The position numbers were made by a program, and so were the translations under genes. Below are positions 9,324 through 42,688 of a stretch of 64,000 bases of DNA, piece after piece. The stretch covers positions 248,001 to 312,000 of the forward strand of contig NZ_JAGT01000001.1 in assembly GCF_000526795.1 (NCBI RefSeq), written 5' to 3'. The DNA comes from Ruminococcus flavefaciens AE3010. GTDB taxonomy: Bacteria > Bacillota > Clostridia > Oscillospirales > Ruminococcaceae. Numbering within the stretch: position 1 is the first letter of the stretch; the number at the start of each line of letters is the position of its first letter. The notes below the pieces were generated by a model that was given only the letters and a program-made list of their open reading frames with translations, searched no databases and was not told where the DNA came from.

Positions 9324-9354
9324 GTGCGTAGTTTTCTAATTTTATATCGTCTAA
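9324..9354 (+). promoter_or_regulatory. Candidate ECF-sigma promoter (GTGCGTA / CGTCTAA)
   Basis: GTGCGTA at 9324-9330, 17-bp spacer, CGTCTAATATATA from 9348. The same two blocks with a 16-bp spacer precede the ECF sigma gene at 36.5 kb. CGTC-type -10 elements are typical of ECF sigma factors. Confidence 0.55.
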
Positions 9355-9462: not shown

Positions 9463-10917
9463 ATGAAAAAAGCGATTCCACTTATTATGTCATTTGCGCT
9501 CGTTGGTTCATGTTGTATGTTGAATAATACCGTTAAAGACAGCTGCTCGGCGATCACATCCTACAAGATCGTTGAAGAGGGAACATATGATGTCGACGAT
9601 AAAACATCATTCAAGTATTATTTAACGGATACTGATGATGGTTATATCATCAAATATACAGGTACTGCCGAAGAAGTTGTTATCCCCTCGGAGATCAATG
9701 GGAAAAAAGTCACCAAAATAGCCTACGCTTCATTCTTTAATTGTGACTATGTCACTTCGGTAACTATACCAGATAGTATTACAGATATCTATTCATTTGC
9801 TTTTGCAGGCTGTACAGGCTTGACTTCTTTGAAGATACCGAGCAGTGTTTCGTCCATCAGCTCAAGTATTTGCAAGGATTGCACAAATTTGCGTTCGGTC
9901 ACTCTGCCTGATAAGGTAGACATGATCGACATGGAAGCATTTTTAAACTGCACTTCGCTGGAGTCGATCAATGTTCCTGCGGATACAGAATATGTCATGA
10001 GTGATGCTTTCACTAATACAAAATGGTACGACGATCAGCCTGACGGAATGATTGTTGTAGGAAAGACTTTTTATAAGTATAAAGGAACGATGCCTGAAAA
10101 CACATCAATTGTAATCCCTGATGATATTAAGTGTATTGGTGACAGCGCTTTTAAAGGCTGTACAGGTCTGACCTCTGTAACAATTCCCGAGGGTGTTGAA
10201 TTTATTGAGAGCAGTGCTTTTTCAGGGTGCAGCGGTCTTACCTCGGTAAATATCCCGAACTCAGTAAAAAATTTGGGGCATTATATTCTTGAGGATTGCA
10301 CAGGGCTTACTTCCGTAACACTTCCCGAAGAAATTGAATATTTAAGCTACGGTACTTTCAAGGGCTGTACTGGACTGACTACTGTCACACTTCCAAACAG
10401 TCTTAAAGGAGTTAATATTGAAACTTTTGAAGGCTGTACAAATCTTACTTCAGTAAACATTCCCGATAATAATACATATATCGGGGAAAAAGCCTTTAAG
10501 GGCTGCACAGGTCTGACTGAAATAGTTCTTCCGAATAATGAAACACTTATACATGAAGAAACGTTTTCGGACTGCACTGCCCTGACTAAAATAGTCATTC
10601 CCGACAAAGTATTGGAAATTGCCGAAAACGCATTTTCGGCTCACAGTAACGCTCTGGCTATCTATGGCTACAGGAATTCCGTCGCTGAAAAGTATGCAAA
10701 GGATAACAATATCAAATTCGTTGCGCTTGATGCAGTAACAACACAGCAGACTACCAAAGCTGCAAATACTACTACAACAAAGACTACTACAACCAAAACC
10801 ACCACTGCAAAAAGCAACTCTCCTCAGACAGGGGACAGAGGTGTCGCAGGACTTGTTTCAGCAGGTATAGCTGCATCTTTGCTTGCACTGGTATCATTCA
10901 AAAAGAGCAGAAGATAA
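9463..10917 (+). CDS. Surface BspA-like leucine-rich repeat protein, sortase-type tail
   Basis: 484-residue secreted protein. A signal peptide (about 1-30) is followed by about 15 leucine-rich repeats of the BspA/LRR_5 type, recognisable by the recurring block of CTGLTSVTIP and a following Phe/Gly-Cys turn. A Thr/Lys-rich linker then leads to a C-terminal sorting-like signal: SPQTGD, a hydrophobic segment (GVAGLVSAGIAASLLALVSF) and a KKSRR tail. Such tails are recognised by sortases that join the protein to the cell wall; the Pro-x-Thr-Gly core is present although the first residue is Ser rather than Leu. BspA-like repeats bind host or plant surface proteins and other cells, so an adhesion role is inferred. 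AAAGGGAG precedes the start. A candidate ECF promoter lies upstream, linking its expression to a surface-sensing sigma factor. Confidence 0.85.
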   Translation: MKKAIPLIMSFALVGSCCMLNNTVKDSCSAITSYKIVEEGTYDVDDKTSFKYYLTDTDDGYIIKYTGTAEEVVIPSEINGKKVTKIAYASFFNCDYVTSVTIPDSITDIYSFAFAGCTGLTSLKIPSSVSSISSSICKDCTNLRSVTLPDKVDMIDMEAFLNCTSLESINVPADTEYVMSDAFTNTKWYDDQPDGMIVVGKTFYKYKGTMPENTSIVIPDDIKCIGDSAFKGCTGLTSVTIPEGVEFIESSAFSGCSGLTSVNIPNSVKNLGHYILEDCTGLTSVTLPEEIEYLSYGTFKGCTGLTTVTLPNSLKGVNIETFEGCTNLTSVNIPDNNTYIGEKAFKGCTGLTEIVLPNNETLIHEETFSDCTALTKIVIPDKVLEIAENAFSAHSNALAIYGYRNSVAEKYAKDNNIKFVALDAVTTQQTTKAANTTTTKTTTTKTTTAKSNSPQTGDRGVAGLVSAGIAASLLALVSFKKSRR

Positions 10918-34145: not shown

Positions 34146-34280
34146 ATTATTAATGACCATAAGAACATATTCGTAAGTCGGATACAGTTCAGAATGGGAG
34201 GCTGAGCCTCGGAGTTATGAAGTGATGCTGTATGGTTAGAAATGAAAAAATTACAAAAAACAGAAAGGGATGTATTACTA

Positions 34281-36278
34281 ATGAATGTAAAAAAATCAAT
34301 AGCTGCGGTCATGACAGTTCCTATGATGCTTTTATCGGCAGTCAGCCTGCCCGAAAGGAATACAACAGCTGCGGGAACATCTTTTTTAGCACAAAAGATC
34401 GAAAATGATGCAGCAACGCAAAATAAGACATCTTTTTACGACGAGAGCGAAGAATATGCTGTCAACAGCGGCTCGGTCAGGATAGATGCTCCCGAGAAGA
34501 GGATCTATAAGATAGGTGAGGAGCTTGATCTTACAGGCGGAAAAATAAGTGCATACGGTGCTGTCACCATTTACTCAGACAGGCAGCCTACAGGAATGAC
34601 AGGAACAAACTGGGATGATTTCACAAGAGCGTTGGAGCTTACCGACCTTGATACTTCGGAGTTCGATAATACCAAAGCGGGTATATACAAGATAAGGGCT
34701 GCTCACAAAGGCACTCCGGGCGGCTTCTACAGTTACGTAAAAGATAACGTAAGATATGACAGCTTTTATGTTATGGTGGTTGACGGCGAGCCAACAAGCG
34801 AGGATACAAAAAAGCTTGAAGAAGCCGAGGCAGTGCAGTACAAAGCTGAGGGCACTGTAAAGATCAAGCAGCCTGACAAGACTATCTATAAAGTAGGTGA
34901 AGAGCTTGACCTGACAGGCTGTACCATCAGCGGTAACGGTAATATCTTCAAGGGAAGCTATAATGATAACAGCGTAGATTATATGGGTGAGTGGAGCATT
35001 GACTCAAAACCTGTTACCCGAGCTGATCTGGCGTGTCCTTATGTCAACATGAATAAAGCAGGTACATATTCTATCTCTCTTGATCGGCTGAGAAACATTG
35101 ACGGATATGACATAGACAAGGATAATATAAAATATGATGAGATAGAGATCGAGATCGTAGACGATAACCCGACAACTGTCACAACTGCTGTTACCACTGT
35201 AAATACAGGTACAAAGAAGACCATCGTATATACAGGAGCTATGGTATATGATGTTGTTAGCGTAAACACCTATCCTACACAGACAGTTTTCCTTGAGGGC
35301 GAGGAGTACAATTCAAAAGGACTCAATGTAAAAAGCAAAAGGTACATACCTTATGAAAAGCTCGGACTTAACAGAGACGAGTATGAGCCTCAGCCTGTTT
35401 CTGATACAGATGTAGAGATAGCGGCGTCTTCAGTAACTATCATTGATAAGGACGGGGAAGAGTATAACGCAACAAGAATGTGTCAGCTGCCCGCAGGTGA
35501 GTATACAGTTCAGATCGATAAAGAGGACGCAAAGTATACGCACTATAATGTCTCACTTCGCAATGCAGAGGTATCATACGATATTGAGATAAAGAGCAGT
35601 GATCTCCTGACTGAAAAGACTGTTCCCTCGGGGACAAAGCCCATATTCGGGTATACTCATAATTACGATCAGGCATTTAAGGGAGTAGCGCAGTATCCGA
35701 CAAAGGTCGAGTACAAGCAGGGCGAAGCCCTTGATCTTACAGGGCTTATAATAAAAGCACAGAGGATAATACCTTACGATGTTATATTCGTGAGTCCCTC
35801 TCAATATGAGGAAGAGCCCATTTATCTTAAAACAATGCTTCCGCAGGCAAGCATAATGAAAATTACAGCTGCTGACGGAAAGATATACAGCGGTACGGAT
35901 ATGCCCTCCCTTAAAGCGGGGAAATACACTGTTAGCTGTAAGGAAGAAGGCGTTAAATGGGGCGGCTACAGTGAATATGTGACCGATGTTGACCTTTCAT
36001 ATGAGATCGAGATAAAAGCAAATGCAGATAGCGATAAAGAGCCTGATACAGCATTAAAAGGCGATGCGAACTGCGACGGACAGATCGATATGGCGGATAT
36101 AGTCCTTATCATGCAGGCGCTTGCAAATCCAAACAAATTCGGCATAGCGGGAGCTGATCCCAATCATATTACCGAAGAAGGATTCAGCTGCGCAGATTCT
36201 GACGGAGACGGTCTCACAGTGAACGATGCCCTCCGCATACAGCAGTATCTTTTAGGACTTATTACTGCATTGGCGTAA
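34281..36278 (+). CDS. Secreted Ig-repeat protein with C-terminal dockerin
   Basis: 665-residue secreted protein without a recognised enzyme domain. The ATG at 34281, after AGAAAGGGA, gives a signal peptide (MNVKKSIAAVMTVPMMLLS); the earlier ATG at 34242 has no ribosome binding site. Four bacterial Ig-like (Big) repeats follow, each marked by a Y-K-x-GEELDLTG-like strand: IYKIGEELDLTGGKIS, IYKVGEELDLTGCTIS, VFLEGEEYNSKGLNV and VEYKQGEALDLTGLII. The last two share an extra block ending RIIPY or RYIPY. The C-terminal type I dockerin has two full calcium loops (GDANCDGQIDMADIV and SDGDGLTVNDALR) and the MQALANPNKFG helix of the R. flavefaciens group. It should be held in the cellulosome as a structural or binding part; function unknown. 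A promoter and a terminator make it monocistronic. Confidence 0.82.
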   Translation: MNVKKSIAAVMTVPMMLLSAVSLPERNTTAAGTSFLAQKIENDAATQNKTSFYDESEEYAVNSGSVRIDAPEKRIYKIGEELDLTGGKISAYGAVTIYSDRQPTGMTGTNWDDFTRALELTDLDTSEFDNTKAGIYKIRAAHKGTPGGFYSYVKDNVRYDSFYVMVVDGEPTSEDTKKLEEAEAVQYKAEGTVKIKQPDKTIYKVGEELDLTGCTISGNGNIFKGSYNDNSVDYMGEWSIDSKPVTRADLACPYVNMNKAGTYSISLDRLRNIDGYDIDKDNIKYDEIEIEIVDDNPTTVTTAVTTVNTGTKKTIVYTGAMVYDVVSVNTYPTQTVFLEGEEYNSKGLNVKSKRYIPYEKLGLNRDEYEPQPVSDTDVEIAASSVTIIDKDGEEYNATRMCQLPAGEYTVQIDKEDAKYTHYNVSLRNAEVSYDIEIKSSDLLTEKTVPSGTKPIFGYTHNYDQAFKGVAQYPTKVEYKQGEALDLTGLIIKAQRIIPYDVIFVSPSQYEEEPIYLKTMLPQASIMKITAADGKIYSGTDMPSLKAGKYTVSCKEEGVKWGGYSEYVTDVDLSYEIEIKANADSDKEPDTALKGDANCDGQIDMADIVLIMQALANPNKFGIAGADPNHITEEGFSCADSDGDGLTVNDALRIQQYLLGLITALA

Positions 36279-36399: not shown

Positions 36400-36428
36400 T
36401 TGACACTGTAAAAACGTGATGATATAAT
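36400..36428 (+). promoter_or_regulatory. Consensus sigma-A promoter of the second ECF operon
   Basis: TTGACA at 36400-36405, 17-bp spacer, TATAAT at 36423-36428. With the ECF-type promoter just downstream it gives the operon two starts. Confidence 0.8.
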
Positions 36429-36467: not shown

Positions 36468-36497
36468 GTGCGTAAAAATCAGACCTCATACGTCTAA
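36468..36497 (+). promoter_or_regulatory. Candidate ECF-sigma promoter (autoregulation)
   Basis: GTGCGTA at 36468-36474, 16-bp spacer, CGTCTAATATATA from 36491. The same blocks occur before the LRR gene (9324-9354). Its place directly before an ECF sigma gene suggests the sigma factor drives itself. Confidence 0.6.
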
Positions 36498-36542
36498 TAT
36501 ATAGAAAGCAAATTTGCCTTATTGATTTAAGGAGGGAATCAA

Positions 36543-37097
36543 ATGGGAAACGATGAAGAGCGCTATCGCCGTTTCCTTGATGGTGATGATAATGGATTGA
36601 TAGAAATAATTGATGAATACCATGAGGGTATGTCACTTTACCTGAACAGTATAGTGAACAATATCAGCCTTGCGGAAGATATAATGCAGGATACCTTTGT
36701 CAAGCTTGCGCTGAAAAAGCCTGCCTATAAGGGGAAATGCTCGTTCAAGACATGGCTGTTCACTATTGCGCGGAACTGTGCCATCGACCATCTGAGGAAA
36801 GAGAAGAAAATATCAAGACTGTCTCTTGATGAAGATCTGCAAATACCCATTGTAACTGATACAGAAAAGGAATTTCTCAAGGAGGAGCAGAAGCTTGAGC
36901 TATACAGAGCAATGAAGCGTCTGAATCCTGATTATTATCAAGTGCTCTATCTGATGTACTTTGAGGACCTTGATACATCGGATATTGCCAGAATAATGCA
37001 CAAAGCAAAACGACAGGTCAGCGATCTTGTATTCAGAGCGAGAAAGTCGTTAAAAACCGAACTGGAAAGGAAGGGCTTTATTTATGAGAAATACTAA
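36543..37097 (+). CDS. ECF RNA polymerase sigma factor
   Basis: 184-residue ECF sigma factor. Region 2 at about 20-85 includes LAEDIMQDTFVKLAL and the -10 recognition part FKTWLFTIARNCAIDHLRKEK. Region 4 at about 120-175 includes NPDYYQVLYLMYFEDLDTSDIARIM and the helix KRQVSDLVFRARKSL. AGGAGG precedes the ATG. The stop overlaps the next gene by 14 bases, the usual coupling with a membrane regulator. It sits under a consensus sigma-A promoter and a candidate self-recognised promoter, so a low basal level can be raised by its own activity. Confidence 0.92.
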   Translation: MGNDEERYRRFLDGDDNGLIEIIDEYHEGMSLYLNSIVNNISLAEDIMQDTFVKLALKKPAYKGKCSFKTWLFTIARNCAIDHLRKEKKISRLSLDEDLQIPIVTDTEKEFLKEEQKLELYRAMKRLNPDYYQVLYLMYFEDLDTSDIARIMHKAKRQVSDLVFRARKSLKTELERKGFIYEKY

Positions 37098-39402
37098 AGA
37101 GATCGCTGATTATGTATTCAGCATAAGAGATGAGCATCTCAGGCAGAAGAAGCTGAAGCAGATGCGAATGAAAAAAGCCTGTACAGCTGTTTCGGTCATG
37201 GCTGCGGCAGTGATAATAACAGCGGGTGCGCTGCATTTCTCCTCTTTGGGAACTAAACCTGTACAGCCATCGGGAAGTATGGTGGACGGCTCCGAATCTG
37301 ACAAGCCGCCGGTTGAGCCTGCGGTCACAAGCGTTACTTCTTTGGTATCTGAGAAAAAAACGACTACGACAGCAGCTGTATCAGCAAAGAACGATGTAAC
37401 GGCAGTTCTTTCGGGAACTAAAGCAACACTCTCGGCAGTATCATCGATTAAGACAACTACAGCTATAAATGCTAAAACTACCGTGACCGCAGCTTCTTCA
37501 CAGAATGGTTCATCAGCTGCTGCCACAAACACGAATGTACCTGTTACGACTGATATTAATGAAGTTGATTGCGAGGAGGTAATCAGAATGAAAGTAGATT
37601 ATGTTAAAAAGTATCTTGCTGCACTCTCGGCAGCTGCTATTGCTTCAAGCGGAAACCCGATATCTGCGAACGCAGATAGCCTGTTTACACCAAAGCCCCT
37701 TGATCCCAAGGTGGACAGTATCCTTTACATGGAGGATAACGGCGACCTTTTTGACTTTGACGGAAACGGGAAATTCAACACCATGGACGCATATGCGCTC
37801 TACACATACGTAAATGAAGCTTCCGAGCTGCCCGAGGGCTATGCTGCAAGATGTGAAGCCAACGGCGATGTCAACAGAGACGGAAAGGTGGATTTTGCAG
37901 ACAGCAATTTATTCAAAGAGTATTGCCTGCTTAAATTCTCAGGCCTTAACTACGCTTACTGCGCGACCTACACTGATTATCTGCTCCCTGCGGATACTGA
38001 TATGCGTGAACGTGCAGTAAGAAGCATAGCACCCGATGCTCCCGATGATATAAGAGAGAAGCTGCTCAATGAGTTCGTTAACGAGACCTACACATACGGC
38101 TCGGAAAAGAACATAAATGAATTTATAGACTACTGCTTCTGCAACGTTGGTATAGATGCATGGTCGCGTGAAAAGTACAATGACGCACATTTCAAGAGAT
38201 TTACCGATGCGGTAAAGAAGGACAGCTACAGCTTCGACGTCAATGAGGACGGAGTTACCGACCTGAAGGATCTCTATGATATTTACATCTATGACGTTGC
38301 TTCCGCAGATGAGAAAGGTGATATACAGAAGAACTACTATTTCGGGCAGTACAATACAGTAACCGAACAGATCGGAGATTATTCAGTCAGCCACGATGAC
38401 TACGATAATCCTCTGCGTTCACGCCTGCCGCTTTCCGAAGAGTATAAGGCAAACCTCTGGGAAAAGTGCGAGCCCATGTATGATTATGTTTATTCATTCA
38501 TCAAGAGCAACGACGAAAATTACCCCATTTGCAGCGCCTACGTTTTTGATTTTATAGCAAGATACATCATAAATAATACAGAGATAACCACCATTAACAA
38601 AACGAGTCTGTATTATGTGCAGTATCTTGGTGAGGTGGAGCTGTGCGGTCTTTCTGTAAGCGAGAGCTTTGCAAGCTACCTGTCATCGTTTTTGGATGAG
38701 TATTCCGAAAAGCCGTTTGGTTATGATCCTAACAGCGGAGCTCTCAACCCTGACTATGAAAGGATATATGATTACAAGCACCTGTCCAATGAAGATTACG
38801 TAGCGGCACTACAGAAAACAAAGGCTGACTATGAAAGCGGAGTTATCACAAAAGACCTGTTCGATATCAATCTGGACGGTAAGGTGGATCCCCTCGACAG
38901 CTATACCTATGAACTGTACAGTGCTGACATTCATCGGGGGCTGACTGCTGAAACAGGTCTTTTATCTGCTGAGATGCGGAAAAAGATCGAAGAGGACTTC
39001 GACGCCGATCGGGACGGAAAATCAGGAACACTGGGCGACTATATGTTCCTTTCGTATATTGCGGGCAACAGCAGCGATATCCCACAGTATATGCTTGATA
39101 TATACTACCTTGAGCTCGTAGAGCAAAAGGGACTGGTAGACCTCAGCGATATCAGACCTTATATCGAGAAGCTCTGCAAGGACAAGGAGGCAGGAGACGT
39201 TGATCTTGACGGTAAGGTAACAGCTGTTGACGCAAGCGGAGTTCTCAGTTACTATGCAGAGACATCGGTCAATGCAGAGGTAAGCAATGTAACAGTAGCT
39301 ATGATGAGCTACATGGCAGACCTCAACGAGGACGGCTATGTAAACAGCGTGGACGCCTCGGCTGTACTTTCTGCCTATGCGGAAAACTCTGTTCAGAAAT
39401 AA
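37084..39402 (+). CDS. Membrane sigma partner fused to EF-hand/dockerin-repeat protein
   Basis: 772-residue reading frame with two parts. Residues 1-168 resemble a small anti-sigma-like membrane protein: a basic cytoplasmic N-terminus (MRNTKEIADYVFSIRDEHL), one membrane span at about 36-56 (AVSVMAAAVIITAGALHF) and a Thr/Ser/Ala-rich outer linker. In the same frame, with no stop, an ATG at 37588 (residue 169) follows GAGGAGG by eight bases and starts a convincing signal peptide (MKVDYVKKYLAALSAAAIA, NPISANA). The rest holds about seven calcium-loop motifs of dockerin type, for example DFDGNGKFN, GDVNRDGKVD, DVNEDGVTD, DINLDGKVD and a final pair GDVDLDGKVTAVDAS and DLNEDGYVNSVDAS. It may be made both as a fusion and as a separately started secreted protein. 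It overlaps the sigma gene by 14 bases. Sensing of cellulosome assembly is a hypothesis only. Confidence 0.75.
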   Translation: MRNTKEIADYVFSIRDEHLRQKKLKQMRMKKACTAVSVMAAAVIITAGALHFSSLGTKPVQPSGSMVDGSESDKPPVEPAVTSVTSLVSEKKTTTTAAVSAKNDVTAVLSGTKATLSAVSSIKTTTAINAKTTVTAASSQNGSSAAATNTNVPVTTDINEVDCEEVIRMKVDYVKKYLAALSAAAIASSGNPISANADSLFTPKPLDPKVDSILYMEDNGDLFDFDGNGKFNTMDAYALYTYVNEASELPEGYAARCEANGDVNRDGKVDFADSNLFKEYCLLKFSGLNYAYCATYTDYLLPADTDMRERAVRSIAPDAPDDIREKLLNEFVNETYTYGSEKNINEFIDYCFCNVGIDAWSREKYNDAHFKRFTDAVKKDSYSFDVNEDGVTDLKDLYDIYIYDVASADEKGDIQKNYYFGQYNTVTEQIGDYSVSHDDYDNPLRSRLPLSEEYKANLWEKCEPMYDYVYSFIKSNDENYPICSAYVFDFIARYIINNTEITTINKTSLYYVQYLGEVELCGLSVSESFASYLSSFLDEYSEKPFGYDPNSGALNPDYERIYDYKHLSNEDYVAALQKTKADYESGVITKDLFDINLDGKVDPLDSYTYELYSADIHRGLTAETGLLSAEMRKKIEEDFDADRDGKSGTLGDYMFLSYIAGNSSDIPQYMLDIYYLELVEQKGLVDLSDIRPYIEKLCKDKEAGDVDLDGKVTAVDASGVLSYYAETSVNAEVSNVTVAMMSYMADLNEDGYVNSVDASAVLSAYAENSVQK
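37573..37590 (+). promoter_or_regulatory. Internal ribosome binding site and start, decides a second product
   Basis: GAGGAGG at 37573-37579 with an ATG at 37588-37590, in frame with the long gene. The following residues form a signal peptide, which is unexpected in the middle of a membrane protein. Confidence 0.65.
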
Positions 39403-40593: not shown

Positions 40594-40622
40594 TTGACTT
40601 TATCTTTGCAAAGTGGTAGTAT
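40594..40622 (+). promoter_or_regulatory. Sigma-A promoter of the third ECF operon
   Basis: TTGACT at 40594-40599, 17-bp spacer, TAGTAT at 40617-40622. An ECF-type promoter lies further downstream, as in the second sigma operon. Confidence 0.6.
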
Positions 40623-40675
40623 TTAATAGCATTTTTATACTACGCTCAGAAAAGTTCAAAAAACTTTTCTGCAAT

Positions 40676-40702
40676 GTAACACCTGATACTTCTGTTACGA
40701 TT
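40676..40702 (+). promoter_or_regulatory. Candidate ECF-sigma promoter (autoregulation)
   Basis: GTAACA at 40676-40681, 16-bp spacer, CGATT at 40698-40702. A 9-bp hairpin (AGAAAAGTT/AACTTTTCT, 40648-40670) ends five bases before it. Confidence 0.65.
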
Positions 40703-40753
40703 GTTGTTTATGAAAGGTCGGCCTTACAAAATAAAACGCAGGGAGGAATGACA

Positions 40754-41320
40754 ATGACAAGCAGGGAACTGACAGAGATGATGCAGAGATCATCTGTTGA
40801 CTGTCATAAAGCTCTCGTCAGGGAATATGGCAGATATGTTTATGCTATCGTTTACAATAAGCTCAGAGGCTGCGGCACCAATGAAGATATAGAGGAATGT
40901 GTCAGCGACGTTTTTGCAGCACTTTTTATGAAGTGTGAATACGACATGTCATCTGAGAATGATATTAAATACCTTATCGGAACTATCGCCAAAAGAAAAG
41001 CAATTGACAGCTTCCGCAGTCTTACCGCAAGAGGAAGCCATATATCCGAAACTGATGAGGACGATATGAGAGAGCTTGCCTCGGACTTCAGTGTTGATGA
41101 ACACGTTGACCTATCTGAACTCCGCCGCGTGCTCCTCGATAAGATAGATGAACTGGGAGAGCCTGATTCGACTATACTTATACAGAAATTCTACTATAAC
41201 CGAAATTCCAGTGAAATAGCCGAAAGTGTTTCCATGACTGCAACTGCGGTCAGACAGAGATGCTCGCGTGCTATGGACAAGCTTCGCAGTAAGCTTACGG
41301 AAGTCGGGATTGGAAGATAA
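40754..41320 (+). CDS. ECF RNA polymerase sigma factor
   Basis: 188-residue ECF sigma factor. Region 2 includes KALVREYGRYVYAIVYNKL and NEDIEECVSDVFAALF; region 4 includes DSTILIQKFYYNRNSSEIA and the recognition helix TATAVRQRCSRAMDKL. The start is the ATG at 40754, eight bases after GGAGG; the longer frame from 40613 runs back through the promoter and is not expected to be translated. The membrane partner begins 12 bases after the stop. It is one of three such pairs in the window and the only one whose pair of genes does not overlap. Confidence 0.9.
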   Translation: MTSRELTEMMQRSSVDCHKALVREYGRYVYAIVYNKLRGCGTNEDIEECVSDVFAALFMKCEYDMSSENDIKYLIGTIAKRKAIDSFRSLTARGSHISETDEDDMRELASDFSVDEHVDLSELRRVLLDKIDELGEPDSTILIQKFYYNRNSSEIAESVSMTATAVRQRCSRAMDKLRSKLTEVGIGR

Positions 41321-41332
41321 GGAGGGGAAAAC

Positions 41333-42688
41333 ATGAAAGAGAAAAATTTATTCGATATTCTTGAAGATGCGGAGAATGATTCAATGAAAAGACTTATCGA
41401 AAAGTGCCCCGAGGTATCAGATGAACAGCTCGACAGGATATTTGCCAAGAGCGAGAAGAAGTTCAGGGATCAAAAGGCAGAAAAAGAAAGAACAGAAAGA
41501 AGCGAAAATATAAAAATGAAAAATAATGATATAGTTGAGGGAGTTGAGCACAGCAAGAGACCTGCATGGCTGACTCCACTGAGCACAGCGGCTTCCATAC
41601 TGCTCATTGCAGGCATCGCTGTAGGAAGCACCTTAATGCTAAAAAGAAACACCAAGCCGGGAGGCGATGACGGCATCGTGACACCTGCTGTCACAGTAAC
41701 AACTTCAACGGGAACAGGCACAAATACAGTTTCTACTGACAAAAACGGTTCAGCGATAACTGTCCCCAAAACAACAACCACTACTACAACGGTCAGCTCC
41801 TCAGCAGGCACTGCCGAAAATGATAAAGCTGCTGATACCAAGTTCATTGAGCCCTTTGTGGGCAGGTGGAGATATGAGATGTCAAGCATCAATAACCTTG
41901 ATATCCCCGAATCGGCAGTATATATGGGCACAGCTGAGATAAACAGCGATGGGACTTACACATACACCGATATCAGCGGTAATGTGACACACGGCACCAT
42001 TAGTAATGCTACAGAAGAAATAGGCGGAACTGAGCTGCAGTGCCTCGATTTCTCGGCAAACGATTTTCTCTTCAACCGTGCGTATTATGTTGAATCAAAA
42101 CCTTATGAGCTCCATTTCGGCAACAGCAACATTGCACGTCTGGTACGTGAGGGTCATACAGTAACTGTTGAAACGAACTGGAAGTCTGCATACAGAAAGG
42201 AACTTCTGAGCTTCATGAATTCGGGAGAGATCAACGAGGATTCAAGATGGGATCTTCAGGATATTGACAACGACGGAACTCCCGAGCTTCTCATATCCAG
42301 AGCTATGTTCCATGTTGCAGGGGTAAGGGTATACTACTACGAAAACGGCTCTGCCATGCCTATCCGCTACACTAACGGAGATTCATACGAGTACGGTGTT
42401 TACGGTGCAATGCAGATATGCCCCGAAGAAAGCCTTGTGGGCGTCTCCAATATCCACATGGGCTATGAGTATTTCGACACATGCAAGTACGAAAACCACA
42501 GTATAACGCAGATACAGATACTGGGCAACAACGAAAACAACAGAGACTATGAAGAGGTTGTATATTCCATAGACCATAAGGATGTCAGCAAGGAAGAGTA
42601 CGATAAGGCACTGAGCGCAAGATCCTCCAAAAACTGGAAAGTCGTAGGTCAGCAGTACTACTTCGGTGACTTCTCACCATTGCTTTAA
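41333..42688 (+). CDS. Membrane partner (putative anti-sigma) of third ECF sigma
   Basis: 451-residue single-pass membrane protein. The cytoplasmic part (about 1-80) contains a short helical segment with SDEQLDRIFAKSEKKF; the membrane span lies at about 83-103 (AASILLIAGIAVGSTLML); a Thr/Ser-rich linker (about 110-165) leads outward. The outer domain, about 168-451, starts with FVGRWRYEMSSI, a beta-rich lipocalin-like opening, and includes DLQDIDNDGTPELLIS, a calcium-loop motif of the FG-GAP/VCBS kind. AAGGAGG precedes the ATG. Its place next to an ECF sigma gene suggests it holds the sigma factor until a surface signal arrives; this is inferred. The operon ends at a long hairpin. Confidence 0.68.
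   Translation: MKEKNLFDILEDAENDSMKRLIEKCPEVSDEQLDRIFAKSEKKFRDQKAEKERTERSENIKMKNNDIVEGVEHSKRPAWLTPLSTAASILLIAGIAVGSTLMLKRNTKPGGDDGIVTPAVTVTTSTGTGTNTVSTDKNGSAITVPKTTTTTTTVSSSAGTAENDKAADTKFIEPFVGRWRYEMSSINNLDIPESAVYMGTAEINSDGTYTYTDISGNVTHGTISNATEEIGGTELQCLDFSANDFLFNRAYYVESKPYELHFGNSNIARLVREGHTVTVETNWKSAYRKELLSFMNSGEINEDSRWDLQDIDNDGTPELLISRAMFHVAGVRVYYYENGSAMPIRYTNGDSYEYGVYGAMQICPEESLVGVSNIHMGYEYFDTCKYENHSITQIQILGNNENNRDYEEVVYSIDHKDVSKEEYDKALSARSSKNWKVVGQQYYFGDFSPLL

Follow-up and report, generated by a model that had tools for sequence, protein, structure and literature searches.

The reading frame that adjoins a sigma factor gene in Ruminococcus flavefaciens AE3010 raises the question of whether one uninterrupted frame gives one protein or two. 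The window, by which we mean the whole stretch of 64,000 nt that was analysed (NZ_JAGT01000001.1, 248,001-312,000, forward strand), supplies all of the coordinates used here, and the features are collected in Table 1. The initial annotation described a single frame overlapping an ECF sigma factor gene, with a membrane span, a linker, a GAGGAGG site, an ATG at 37588, a signal peptide and about seven dockerin-like calcium loops, and took it for either an old gene pair that had lost its stop or one gene with two products. This description held, except that, of the loops, just the final two make up a canonical dockerin. The second reading is strongly supported by the comparative evidence given below, and the first is excluded as a recent accident. 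The best explanation, which we consider reasonably probable, is a dual-product anti-sigma gene with a cohesin-linked feedback loop.

Table 1. Features of the sigma factor/dockerin locus, in window positions.
Feature	Position	Strand	Evidence
Sigma-A-like promoter, TTGACA-17-TATAAT	36400..36428	+	12/12 consensus match
ECF-like promoter candidate, TGCGTAA-N15-CGTCTAA, presumed autoregulated	36469..36497	+	Kept in L058-L065
Leader element AAAGCAAATTTGC, palindromic core	36505..36517	+	Identical in window, L058-L065 and FD-1
ECF sigma factor gene, 184 aa	36543..37097	+	Sigma70_r2, Sigma70_r4_2 and TIGR02937 matches
Long product, 772 aa: putative anti-sigma, membrane anchor, linker, calcium-loop domain, dockerin	37084..39402	+	Open frame; fused in orthologues
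Cytosolic segment, residues 1-31, presumed sigma-binding	37084..37176	+	Co-variation with sigma
Membrane span, about residues 32-52	37177..37239	+	Hydropathy; helix in predicted model
S/T-rich extracellular linker, stop-free	37240..37587	+	Low-confidence model region; frame kept in 76 loci
Internal RBS GAGGAGG and start ATG (37588-37590) of nested product	37573..37590	+	SD strength; nucleotide conservation
Internal signal peptide, about residues 169-196	37588..37671	+	Kept in fused members
Putative secreted short product with calcium loops and dockerin (604 aa with its signal peptide)	37588..39402	+	Inferred from internal start; stand-alone homologues
Five calcium loops in mostly helical region	37753..39036	+	Loop positions; predicted model
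C-terminal dockerin, symmetric, group-4-like	39190..39393	+	Pfam; best PDB sequence match ScaH dockerin

The sigma gene product matched Pfam Sigma70_r2 (E 8e-14) and Sigma70_r4_2 (E 7e-10) and NCBIfam sigma70-ECF TIGR02937, all over their cut-offs, which identifies the partner as an ECF sigma factor. The long frame begins inside this gene, with an overlap of 14 nt. No known anti-sigma domain of Pfam or NCBIfam was detected in the 772-aa protein or among 61 family members. The N-terminus co-varied with the sigma factor among 74 members (partial r 0.873, 0/999 permutations), in a test that is confounded by the adjacency of the two genes. Position and co-variation point to a putative anti-sigma role. 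The membrane span has a mean hydropathy of 2.09 across 17 residues, and residues 53-156 of the linker region are modelled with pLDDT <50. The signal-peptide segment might cross the membrane a second time in the long form, placing the dockerin inside the cell.

A stop before 37588 in relatives was to speak, according to the initial annotation, for a sequencing error or a recent fusion. The downstream gene was read in ten (L058-L067) of 45 loci, and the same fused frame, free of such a stop, was present in seven of the eight close sigma orthologues; in the remaining one, L065, the sigma gene is truncated and a remnant of a dockerin is present. R. flavefaciens strains YAD2003 and YL228 are among the carriers of close orthologues. 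The split state does exist elsewhere, because the more distant relative FD-1 (L067) has two separate overlapping genes, the first for a 292-aa membrane protein and the second for a dockerin protein with a signal peptide.

A census of the genus was made with a profile (A1) built from 20 fused members, and it therefore favours members with an internal signal peptide. Matches were obtained in 111 of the 125 genus genomes searched, a count that includes stand-alone secreted homologues, and, more weakly (best E 1.8e-13), in 14 of 196 other genomes of the order. No fused frame was seen at the three out-of-genus places fetched (G310, G220 and G260, of which one was classed as 'other' and two were filtered out), and tblastn against the plasmid collection gave no match. 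Loci were fetched from the matches listed, as those near the top and some picked for short or broken frames. Of 115 frames, 102 were kept, the others being dropped for E >1e-6, for having no candidate start, or as a duplicate (L045), and a frame was called fused when at least 100 codons with a hydrophobic span lay ahead of the start. Of the 77 frames initially called fused, 75 had a sigma-like ORF upstream; L216, probably not a true fusion, was left out afterwards, and L230 stayed in the count though no sigma was found. The resulting 76 fused loci (74 distinct genes and two duplicates) lie in 48 genus genomes at most, an upper bound because records may repeat genomes. The class 'split' consisted mostly of unrelated upstream ORFs, and by inspection only two were real: G004 (L049), with a 513-aa ORF followed 36 nt on by a 230-aa signal-peptide ORF, and L218, a paralogue in the window's own genome with a frameshift in the linker. 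One locus classed as 'other' (L165) reaches the contig end and may be fused.

The linker frame of the fused loci contained no stop in 9169 codons, as compared with 449 and 600 in the other two frames, and had 46 distinct lengths among the 76 loci. Its S/T fraction was 0.33 in frame 0, against 0.10 and 0.13 in the others. These comparisons suggest that the long form is selected.

Bacterial genes with an in-frame internal SD and start yield a second, shorter isoform. In the window gene, GAGGAGG occupies 37573-37579 and the ATG at 37588 is followed by MKVDYVKKYLAALSAAAIASSGNPISANA; the SD at this start is much stronger than at the other in-frame ATGs. Among eight orthologues, codons -5 to -1 before the internal start showed 0/114 synonymous differences, as compared with 4830/11375 (42%) across the ORF, and codons -5 to 0 had the second lowest nucleotide divergence among 766 six-codon stretches, the lowest being an overlapping stretch. 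In eight B paralogues, in which the SD is read as Arg-Arg spelled AGG AGG, 0/56 differences were counted against 6367/13830, and the SD is encoded by differing residues in differing families. The Met at the internal start was kept in all 34 aligned proteins spanning the site, query included, and the L064 orthologue keeps the start as TTG. The gene therefore has a conserved in-frame internal SD and start codon, as expected of a dual-start gene.

The same was seen across the census. When starts were chosen without reference to the SD, 68 of the 76 at signal peptides had an SD dG of at most -7, as compared with 26 of 1113 other in-frame ATGs, with medians of -8.5 and -2.1; the associated p of 2e-43 is not a true probability because the sequences are related. 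Seven of the 76 internal starts had an SD dG above -7. The SD was part of the score by which census starts were chosen, and a repeat without it agreed in 74 of 76, the start moving to a Met three codons downstream in L062 and the TTG of L064 being disallowed. A synonymous-redraw test per gene gave P of 0.04-0.19 (A), 0.01-0.025 (B), 0.08-0.17 (C) and 0.008-0.45 (D); it is weak for single genes, and consistently low in B only. The internal signal peptide was present in a set of 20 members and in all those proteins (36 of the 37 compared) that extend over the segment; the fused frames also show it, but there a hydrophobic stretch and a basic residue had been selection criteria. Two database proteins (P0026 and P0027) start at the homologous Met, which the choice of the gene caller or contig ends could also explain. 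Taken together, the comparisons indicate that the internal start is under selection at the nucleotide level. With the internal start apparently under selection and the linker frame preserved, two products are most likely made from the gene: a putative anti-sigma factor, anchored in the membrane and bearing its dockerin outside, and a freely secreted copy of the outer part.

Four other explanations were weighed. That the dockerin-tethered anti-sigma factor is the sole functional product, with the internal SD, start and signal peptide inherited from an ancestral secreted protein and seldom used, would agree with the selection on the long frame and with the stand-alone secreted relatives, which suggest such an origin. 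However, the SD core has no synonymous change across orthologues and is maintained in paralogues only about 16-24% identical to the window protein; present-day selection is therefore needed, and we regard this explanation as rather unlikely. Alternatively, only the long form would be translated, and signal peptidase or another protease would cut it at the internal signal peptide to free the outer part, the segment being kept as a cleavage site. A signal peptide that follows a translocated linker is wrongly oriented for signal peptidase, which counts against such a cut. The conservation of the SD at the nucleotide level, its encoding through different residues and the kept Met or TTG would also be left unexplained, although fused members do retain the signal peptide. 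Regulated proteolysis of anti-sigma factors is itself a known signalling route (RsgI/RseP/ClpXP, in the available text of PMC12203970), and we judge processing of a polyprotein unlikely here. It is still less probable, and in our estimation very improbable, that a stop was lost by chance, that the fusion is tolerated and that the short form alone matters, the long protein being non-functional. The two overlapping genes of FD-1, the 513-aa and 230-aa ORFs of G004 and the stand-alone secreted homologues fit such a relic, but drift would not leave a stop-free frame in 76 loci with 46 linker lengths, nor a linker that is S/T-rich in frame 0 only. A sequencing or assembly error, for which nothing was found, is refuted by database homologues, 31 of 36 of which align over 100% of the query's length with identities of 32-96% (the one at 96% being perhaps a close strain), and by fused orthologues in both isolates and MAGs.

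The seven calcium loops start at 37753, 37867, 38236, 38863, 39001, 39196 and 39319. The last two form paired calcium-binding repeats recognised as a dockerin by Pfam Dockerin_1 (PF00404; E 2.3e-15, 57 bits against a cut-off of 22.9), and the other five lie in a larger, mostly helical model region outside the canonical dockerin. In the structure model (mean pLDDT 74.2, pTM 0.59), 35 of 48 ten-residue blocks of residues 201-680 had pLDDT of at least 80. A Foldseek search of the model against PDB gave no match at E<=0.001, and among the 50 matches listed the only high-probability ones hold dockerins (2ccl and 4wkz); by that test the helical calcium-loop region therefore has no close solved fold.

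The best PDB sequence match of the window dockerin was the ScaH dockerin 8ajy_B (E 1.1e-5), and 8ajy_A, the cell-wall anchoring protein of the same entry, matched the ScaE of this genome (E 5.1e-8). The ScaH dockerin belongs to group 4, whose published partner is the wall-anchored ScaE, and the published partners of group-1 dockerins are ScaA/ScaB. Candidates for ScaC, ScaA, ScaB, CttA and ScaE are carried by the genome; the ScaE candidate matched the solved ScaE (E 1.4e-14) but not PF00963, the cohesin model, which was over cut-off at nine places in the genome and also in one of 14 control genomes. Judged from these matches, the partner of the window dockerin is probably wall-bound ScaE. In the family, PF00404 matched 50 of 61 aligned members at E 0.001 and none of the other 11. 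A first sorting pattern left 33 of 76 loci unsorted; with our own looser patterns, the 74 distinct genes were sorted into 13 group-4-like, 55 group-1-like and six unsorted, three of which are group-1-like by eye. The strict published VxIMQxxxNP was matched by only 21 genes. No dockerin is seen in the other three unsorted genes, L228, L236 (at a contig end) and L223 (whose frame stops early). It is plausible that most paralogues, with group-1-like dockerins, are of the ScaA/ScaB type.

Upstream of the sigma gene, TTGACA is aligned in the window and L058-L064, and not in L065-L067. The ECF-like candidate reads CGTCTAATA in the window and L058-L065, with GCGTAA in all but L064; it is diverged in FD-1 and absent in L066, from which the leader element is absent as well. 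The leader element occurs once in the genome. A genome search with the ECF-like pattern (A) at <=1 mismatch found the own site only, against three reversed-control matches; pattern B likewise found its own site, against two, and a looser pattern A found four, against three. Thus the counts alone show nothing over chance, and only the position before the own sigma gene favours the sites. A wider regulon with divergent sites may exist.

We propose the following for the dual-product gene. From the first start, a membrane protein would be made that holds the adjoining ECF sigma factor by its short cytosolic end and carries the dockerin at the end of its outer part; from the internal RBS, in the same frame, this outer part would also be made on its own, led by its own signal peptide and secreted in free form. 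Sequence evidence supports the conserved fused frame, an internal start and signal peptide under selection, the pairing of N-terminus and sigma, and the dockerin. Beyond these we infer cohesin docking, sigma release, autoactivation of the operon and competition by the free form. The anchored dockerin would bind a cohesin of a scaffoldin made by the same cell, probably ScaE for the window gene, and docking, or its loss, would free the sigma factor, which would turn on mainly its own operon. Surplus free dockerin protein would then fill cohesins and compete with the anchored form, closing the feedback loop. It is plausible that the dockerin reports free cohesins. A self-titrating sensor of cohesin occupancy, in which the anchored anti-sigma factor probes vacant cohesins and group-4-like and group-1-like paralogues read the levels of the ScaE anchor and of ScaA/ScaB, respectively, is a more tentative possibility; since the secreted copy would compete for these cohesins too, the operon, when expressed, would directly cancel its own signal.

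Among the nearest known systems are the biomass-sensing RsgI-type anti-sigma-I factors of Clostridium thermocellum, membrane anti-sigma factors beside an alternative sigma gene with a cellulosome-linked outer module, as is proposed for the window protein. In RsgI that module is a CBM, whereas the window protein has a calcium-loop region and a dockerin, and a nested secreted product in the same frame is proposed for the window gene. The 772-aa protein had no RsgI domain (RsgI_N) at E<=1 in Pfam or NCBIfam, and its partner matched ECF models, with no SigI model among the best 25 of 105 NCBIfam matches; the earlier proposal of a dockerin-bearing anti-sigma factor different from RsgI is thus supported. 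According to the available text of a 2024 survey, use of the RsgI sensor suite is confined to cellulosome producers of the Acetivibrio type (PMC11557425). The putative short product fits the SIGN-UNK-Doc label (signal peptide, unknown region, dockerin) of R. flavefaciens FD-1 (Rincon et al. 2010, PMC2930009), and the family includes dockerins of both group-1-like and group-4-like type. In that paper, however, such proteins are listed as ordinary secreted dockerin proteins, and its main text has no occurrence of 'sigma' or 'transmembrane'. Single-span ECF anti-sigma factors have a short cytosolic sigma-binding end, one span, a variable outer sensor and overlap with the sigma gene, a layout that is presumed for the window gene and its product too, but the window protein has no known anti-sigma match in Pfam or NCBIfam and its outer part would also be exported alone. 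Unlike in other internal-start isoform genes, the second start opens a signal peptide, which would give membrane and medium isoforms, and the type recurs across a genus-wide paralogous family. This combination of sensor and nested product was not described in the literature searched.

For the regulation of the Ruminococcus cellulosome, the sigma/dockerin family is a testable candidate, consisting of ECF operons in which the plug used for assembly would be part of the sensor. The family would also exemplify a recurring in-frame nested gene through which a single module reaches two destinations, the nested product being hidden from gene annotation because only one ORF is called. A dual-product gene of this kind in fibre-digesting Ruminococcus suggests a route by which the state of the fibre-degrading machine may be sensed.

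The join reported in the initial annotation, in which a membrane part runs without a stop into a ribosome-binding site (SD), an ATG at 37588, a signal peptide and seven calcium loops, was present as claimed. The final two loops form a dockerin (PF00404, E 2.3e-15). In an AlphaFold2 model of the ORF product based on 61 members of the family (mean pLDDT 74.2, pTM 0.59), the linker was without confident structure, and residues 201-680 were mostly helical, with pLDDT >=80 in 35 of 48 ten-residue blocks.

Features of the dockerin-bearing ORF, its sigma partner and the upstream element (window coordinates)
Feature	Position	Description
AAAGCAAATTTGC, palindromic core GCAAATTTGC	36505-36517	downstream of the ECF-like promoter, ahead of the sigma start codon
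ECF sigma gene	36543-37097	partner of the dockerin-bearing ORF
ORF	37084-39402	772 open codons; start overlaps the end of the ECF sigma gene by 14 nt
Cytosolic segment of long form		~31 residues at the N-terminus
Hydrophobic span of long form	residues ~32-52	
S/T-rich linker		116 residues between the hydrophobic span and the internal start region
Internal start	ATG 37588	in frame, GCGAGGAGGTAATCAGA then ATG, opening the signal peptide
Calcium loops		seven, downstream of the internal signal peptide

Comparison with relatives indicates that the fusion is no accident. Named genomes were scanned with the sigma protein, a query neutral on fusion, and the downstream gene was read in the ten nearest of the 45 loci obtained. 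A stop before 37588, which the initial annotation took as a sign of sequencing error or recent fusion, was absent from seven of the eight orthologues with sigma identity >=82%; each has a single fused ORF of 767-779 aa from the conserved start. In the eighth, the sigma is truncated to 149 residues, and what remains of the dockerin gene codes for 206 aa. The other two loci, which are more distant, were not fused in this manner. The operon of R. flavefaciens FD-1 (57% sigma identity) is split: the end of a 292-aa membrane protein gene overlaps the start of a separate gene for a different signal-peptide protein, which carries an internal group-1-like dockerin (PF00404, 23.0 bits against a cut-off of 22.9). 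A Clostridia MAG (50%) has at the same place a 262-aa membrane protein, to which no Pfam match was found. Among 36 database homologues, 31 covered the full query (at 32-96% identity), and those named by NCBI are annotated merely as 'dockerin type I domain-containing protein'. The internal Met was kept in all 34 aligned proteins spanning the site (query counted).

Codon usage around this Met indicates that the internal start is under selection. In codons -5 to -1 of the eight orthologues, none of 114 same-residue comparisons showed a synonymous difference, as compared with 4830 of 11375 over the ORF. Nucleotide divergence of the stretch -5 to 0 was the second lowest of 766 six-codon stretches, and the lowest overlaps it. 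The SD is encoded by different residues in different families (EEV, KEV, MEV, RRV, KED and ERS). In one close locus (L064), the internal Met codon is replaced by TTG, which is read as Leu in the long form but can start the short one. In eight paralogues of family B, the SD is Arg-Arg written AGG AGG, with 0/56 synonymous differences against 6367/13830 overall; the codons after it vary, and the stretch -5 to 0 ranks 6th of 848. When starts were chosen by signal-peptide features alone, 68 of 76 internal starts had an SD energy <=-7 (median -8.5). Of 1113 other ATGs in frame, 26 did (median -2.1). The Mann-Whitney p of 2e-43 is descriptive, since the sequences are related. A synonymous-codon redraw per gene, a weak test for single genes, was consistently low in B only. 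On the + strand, a scan for sigma-70-like promoters gave no match from 37084 to 37588; a single weaker site was detected within the sigma gene (36970-36997). The short product would therefore probably be carried on the same message as the long form.

The linker indicates that the long form is selected as well. Its length ranges over 60-181 codons in fused loci, with 46 distinct lengths, and the frame is kept throughout. The 9169 in-frame codons contained no stop, whereas the two other frames had 449 and 600, although this zero is partly by construction, as broken genes would fall into other classes. S and T together made up 0.33 of the residues in frame, as compared with 0.10 and 0.13 in the two other frames. 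By inspection, just one sigma-linked gene was broken in the linker, an own-genome paralogue (L218, G000:C1:3285057-3289610) with an intact nested start and a fused relative (L054); it may now yield the secreted form alone, or its frameshift may be a sequence error. In L223 the frame breaks later, 3' of the internal start.

Paralogues of the same plan occur in the own genome (e.g. an 865-aa frame in L046 and two in L224) and across genomes of the genus. The two in L224 (G000:C1:112000-123000) are short fused frames of 545 and 578 aa, ~3.4 kb apart, both with symmetric group-4-like dockerins. A profile of the internal-start region, which also counts stand-alone homologues, matched in 111 of 125 genus genomes and, more weakly, in 14 of 196 genomes from elsewhere in the order. 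Examination of 105 loci gave 115 matching frames, of which 102 were kept. Seventy-seven were classed as fused, and 75 of these have a sigma-like ORF upstream. For 23 of the remaining 25, the stretch examined showed no sigma-like ORF, and most of these 23 look like stand-alone secreted homologues. Removal of one probable false positive left 76 fused loci (38 clusters at 50% identity), representing 74 distinct genes in at most 48 genomes.

In 74 members of the family, similarity among the sigmas followed similarity among the cytosolic segments (r 0.893, or a partial of 0.873 once the outer domain was taken into account; 0/999 permutations), and the outer domain added nothing positive (partial -0.238). 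The sigmas fall into four classes of 46, 15, 10 and 3 members, each with its own N-terminal type in the examples inspected. This co-variation is what an anti-sigma pairing predicts, and chromosomal adjacency would also help to produce it. A second ECF sigma/membrane protein pair with a T-rich linker lies downstream (40613-42688); the outer part of its membrane protein gave no Pfam match to a dockerin.

Close orthologues share two elements 5' of sigma, a sigma-A-like promoter and TGCGTAA-N15-CGTCTAA, whose CGTC box resembles those of ECF promoters. AAAGCAAATTTGC has no second copy in the own genome and is the same in the window, the eight close orthologues (L058-L065) and FD-1; a possible role is that of operator or leader element. 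With <=1 mismatch, the ECF-like motif occurs once in the own genome. Paralogue B has another motif, likewise with a single site, which precedes B's own sigma. Since the reversed controls occur 3 and 2 times, respectively, motif frequency alone proves nothing. The operon is likely narrow and self-activating, with the dockerin protein itself as its main output. Elsewhere in the window, a promoter-like GTAGTTTT-N-ATCGTCTAATA (9326-9354) precedes ORF 9463-10917, which encodes a leucine-rich-repeat protein whose end looks sortase-type by eye. In the own genome the only other occurrence of this pattern is at G000:C1:322516-322544 (- strand; 0 control matches), before an ECF sigma gene, and the ORF is probably a target of that sigma.

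The own genome has a R. flavefaciens-type sca cluster, in which ScaC, ScaA, ScaB, CttA and ScaE were named from gene order and domains. Pfam cohesins were found in ScaB and ScaC. The ScaE candidate, whose end looks sortase-type by eye, gave no Pfam cohesin match but did match the solved ScaE (2zf9, E 1.4e-14). For CttA, matches were to X-dockerin chains of solved CttA (4iu2_B, E 4.6e-29). Compared by eye, the ScaB and CttA dockerins have VNAVDASAVLSYYA and ANAVDASTVLSYYA, and the window dockerin VTAVDASGVLSYYA and VNSVDASAVLSAYA. The best PDB match of the latter is the ScaH dockerin 8ajy_B (E 1.1e-5), and the 'cell-wall anchoring protein' of that entry, 8ajy_A, matches the ScaE candidate (E 5.1e-8). 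Group-4 dockerins, such as the ones in CttA, ScaB and ScaH, are reported to recognise ScaE, and those of group 1 the cohesins of ScaA and ScaB (PMC2930009, PMC5301203). A loose pattern placed 55 of the 74 distinct genes in a group-1-like class and 13 in a group-4-like class; given these published partners, the scaffold level that is read may therefore differ between gene copies. In L045, L046, L053 and the window (34242-36278), the sigma operon is directly preceded by the gene of a dockerin protein, judged by eye to be CotH-like or Ig-like; the one in the window has Big_3 and a dockerin match a little under cut-off (20.5 vs 22.9 bits).

The comparisons support one frame with two selected starts, two destinations, a sigma pairing and a dockerin. 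This arrangement was not described in the literature covered, namely titles and abstract openings on dockerins, anti-sigma/RsgI/ECF sigma, the cellulosome, R. flavefaciens cohesin/dockerin groups and internal translation starts, passages of PMC11557425, PMC2930009, PMC5301203 and PMC3573020, and the abstract of PMC12203970, with subscription journals largely outside this scope. We propose that the anchored dockerin of the long form would dock into cohesins on the same cell, and that its docking state would control sigma release, perhaps via proteolysis as for RsgI, the known anti-sigma-I type (abstract of PMC12203970). The signal from docking to sigma could have either sign, and the secreted copy would compete with the anchored form, closing the loop.
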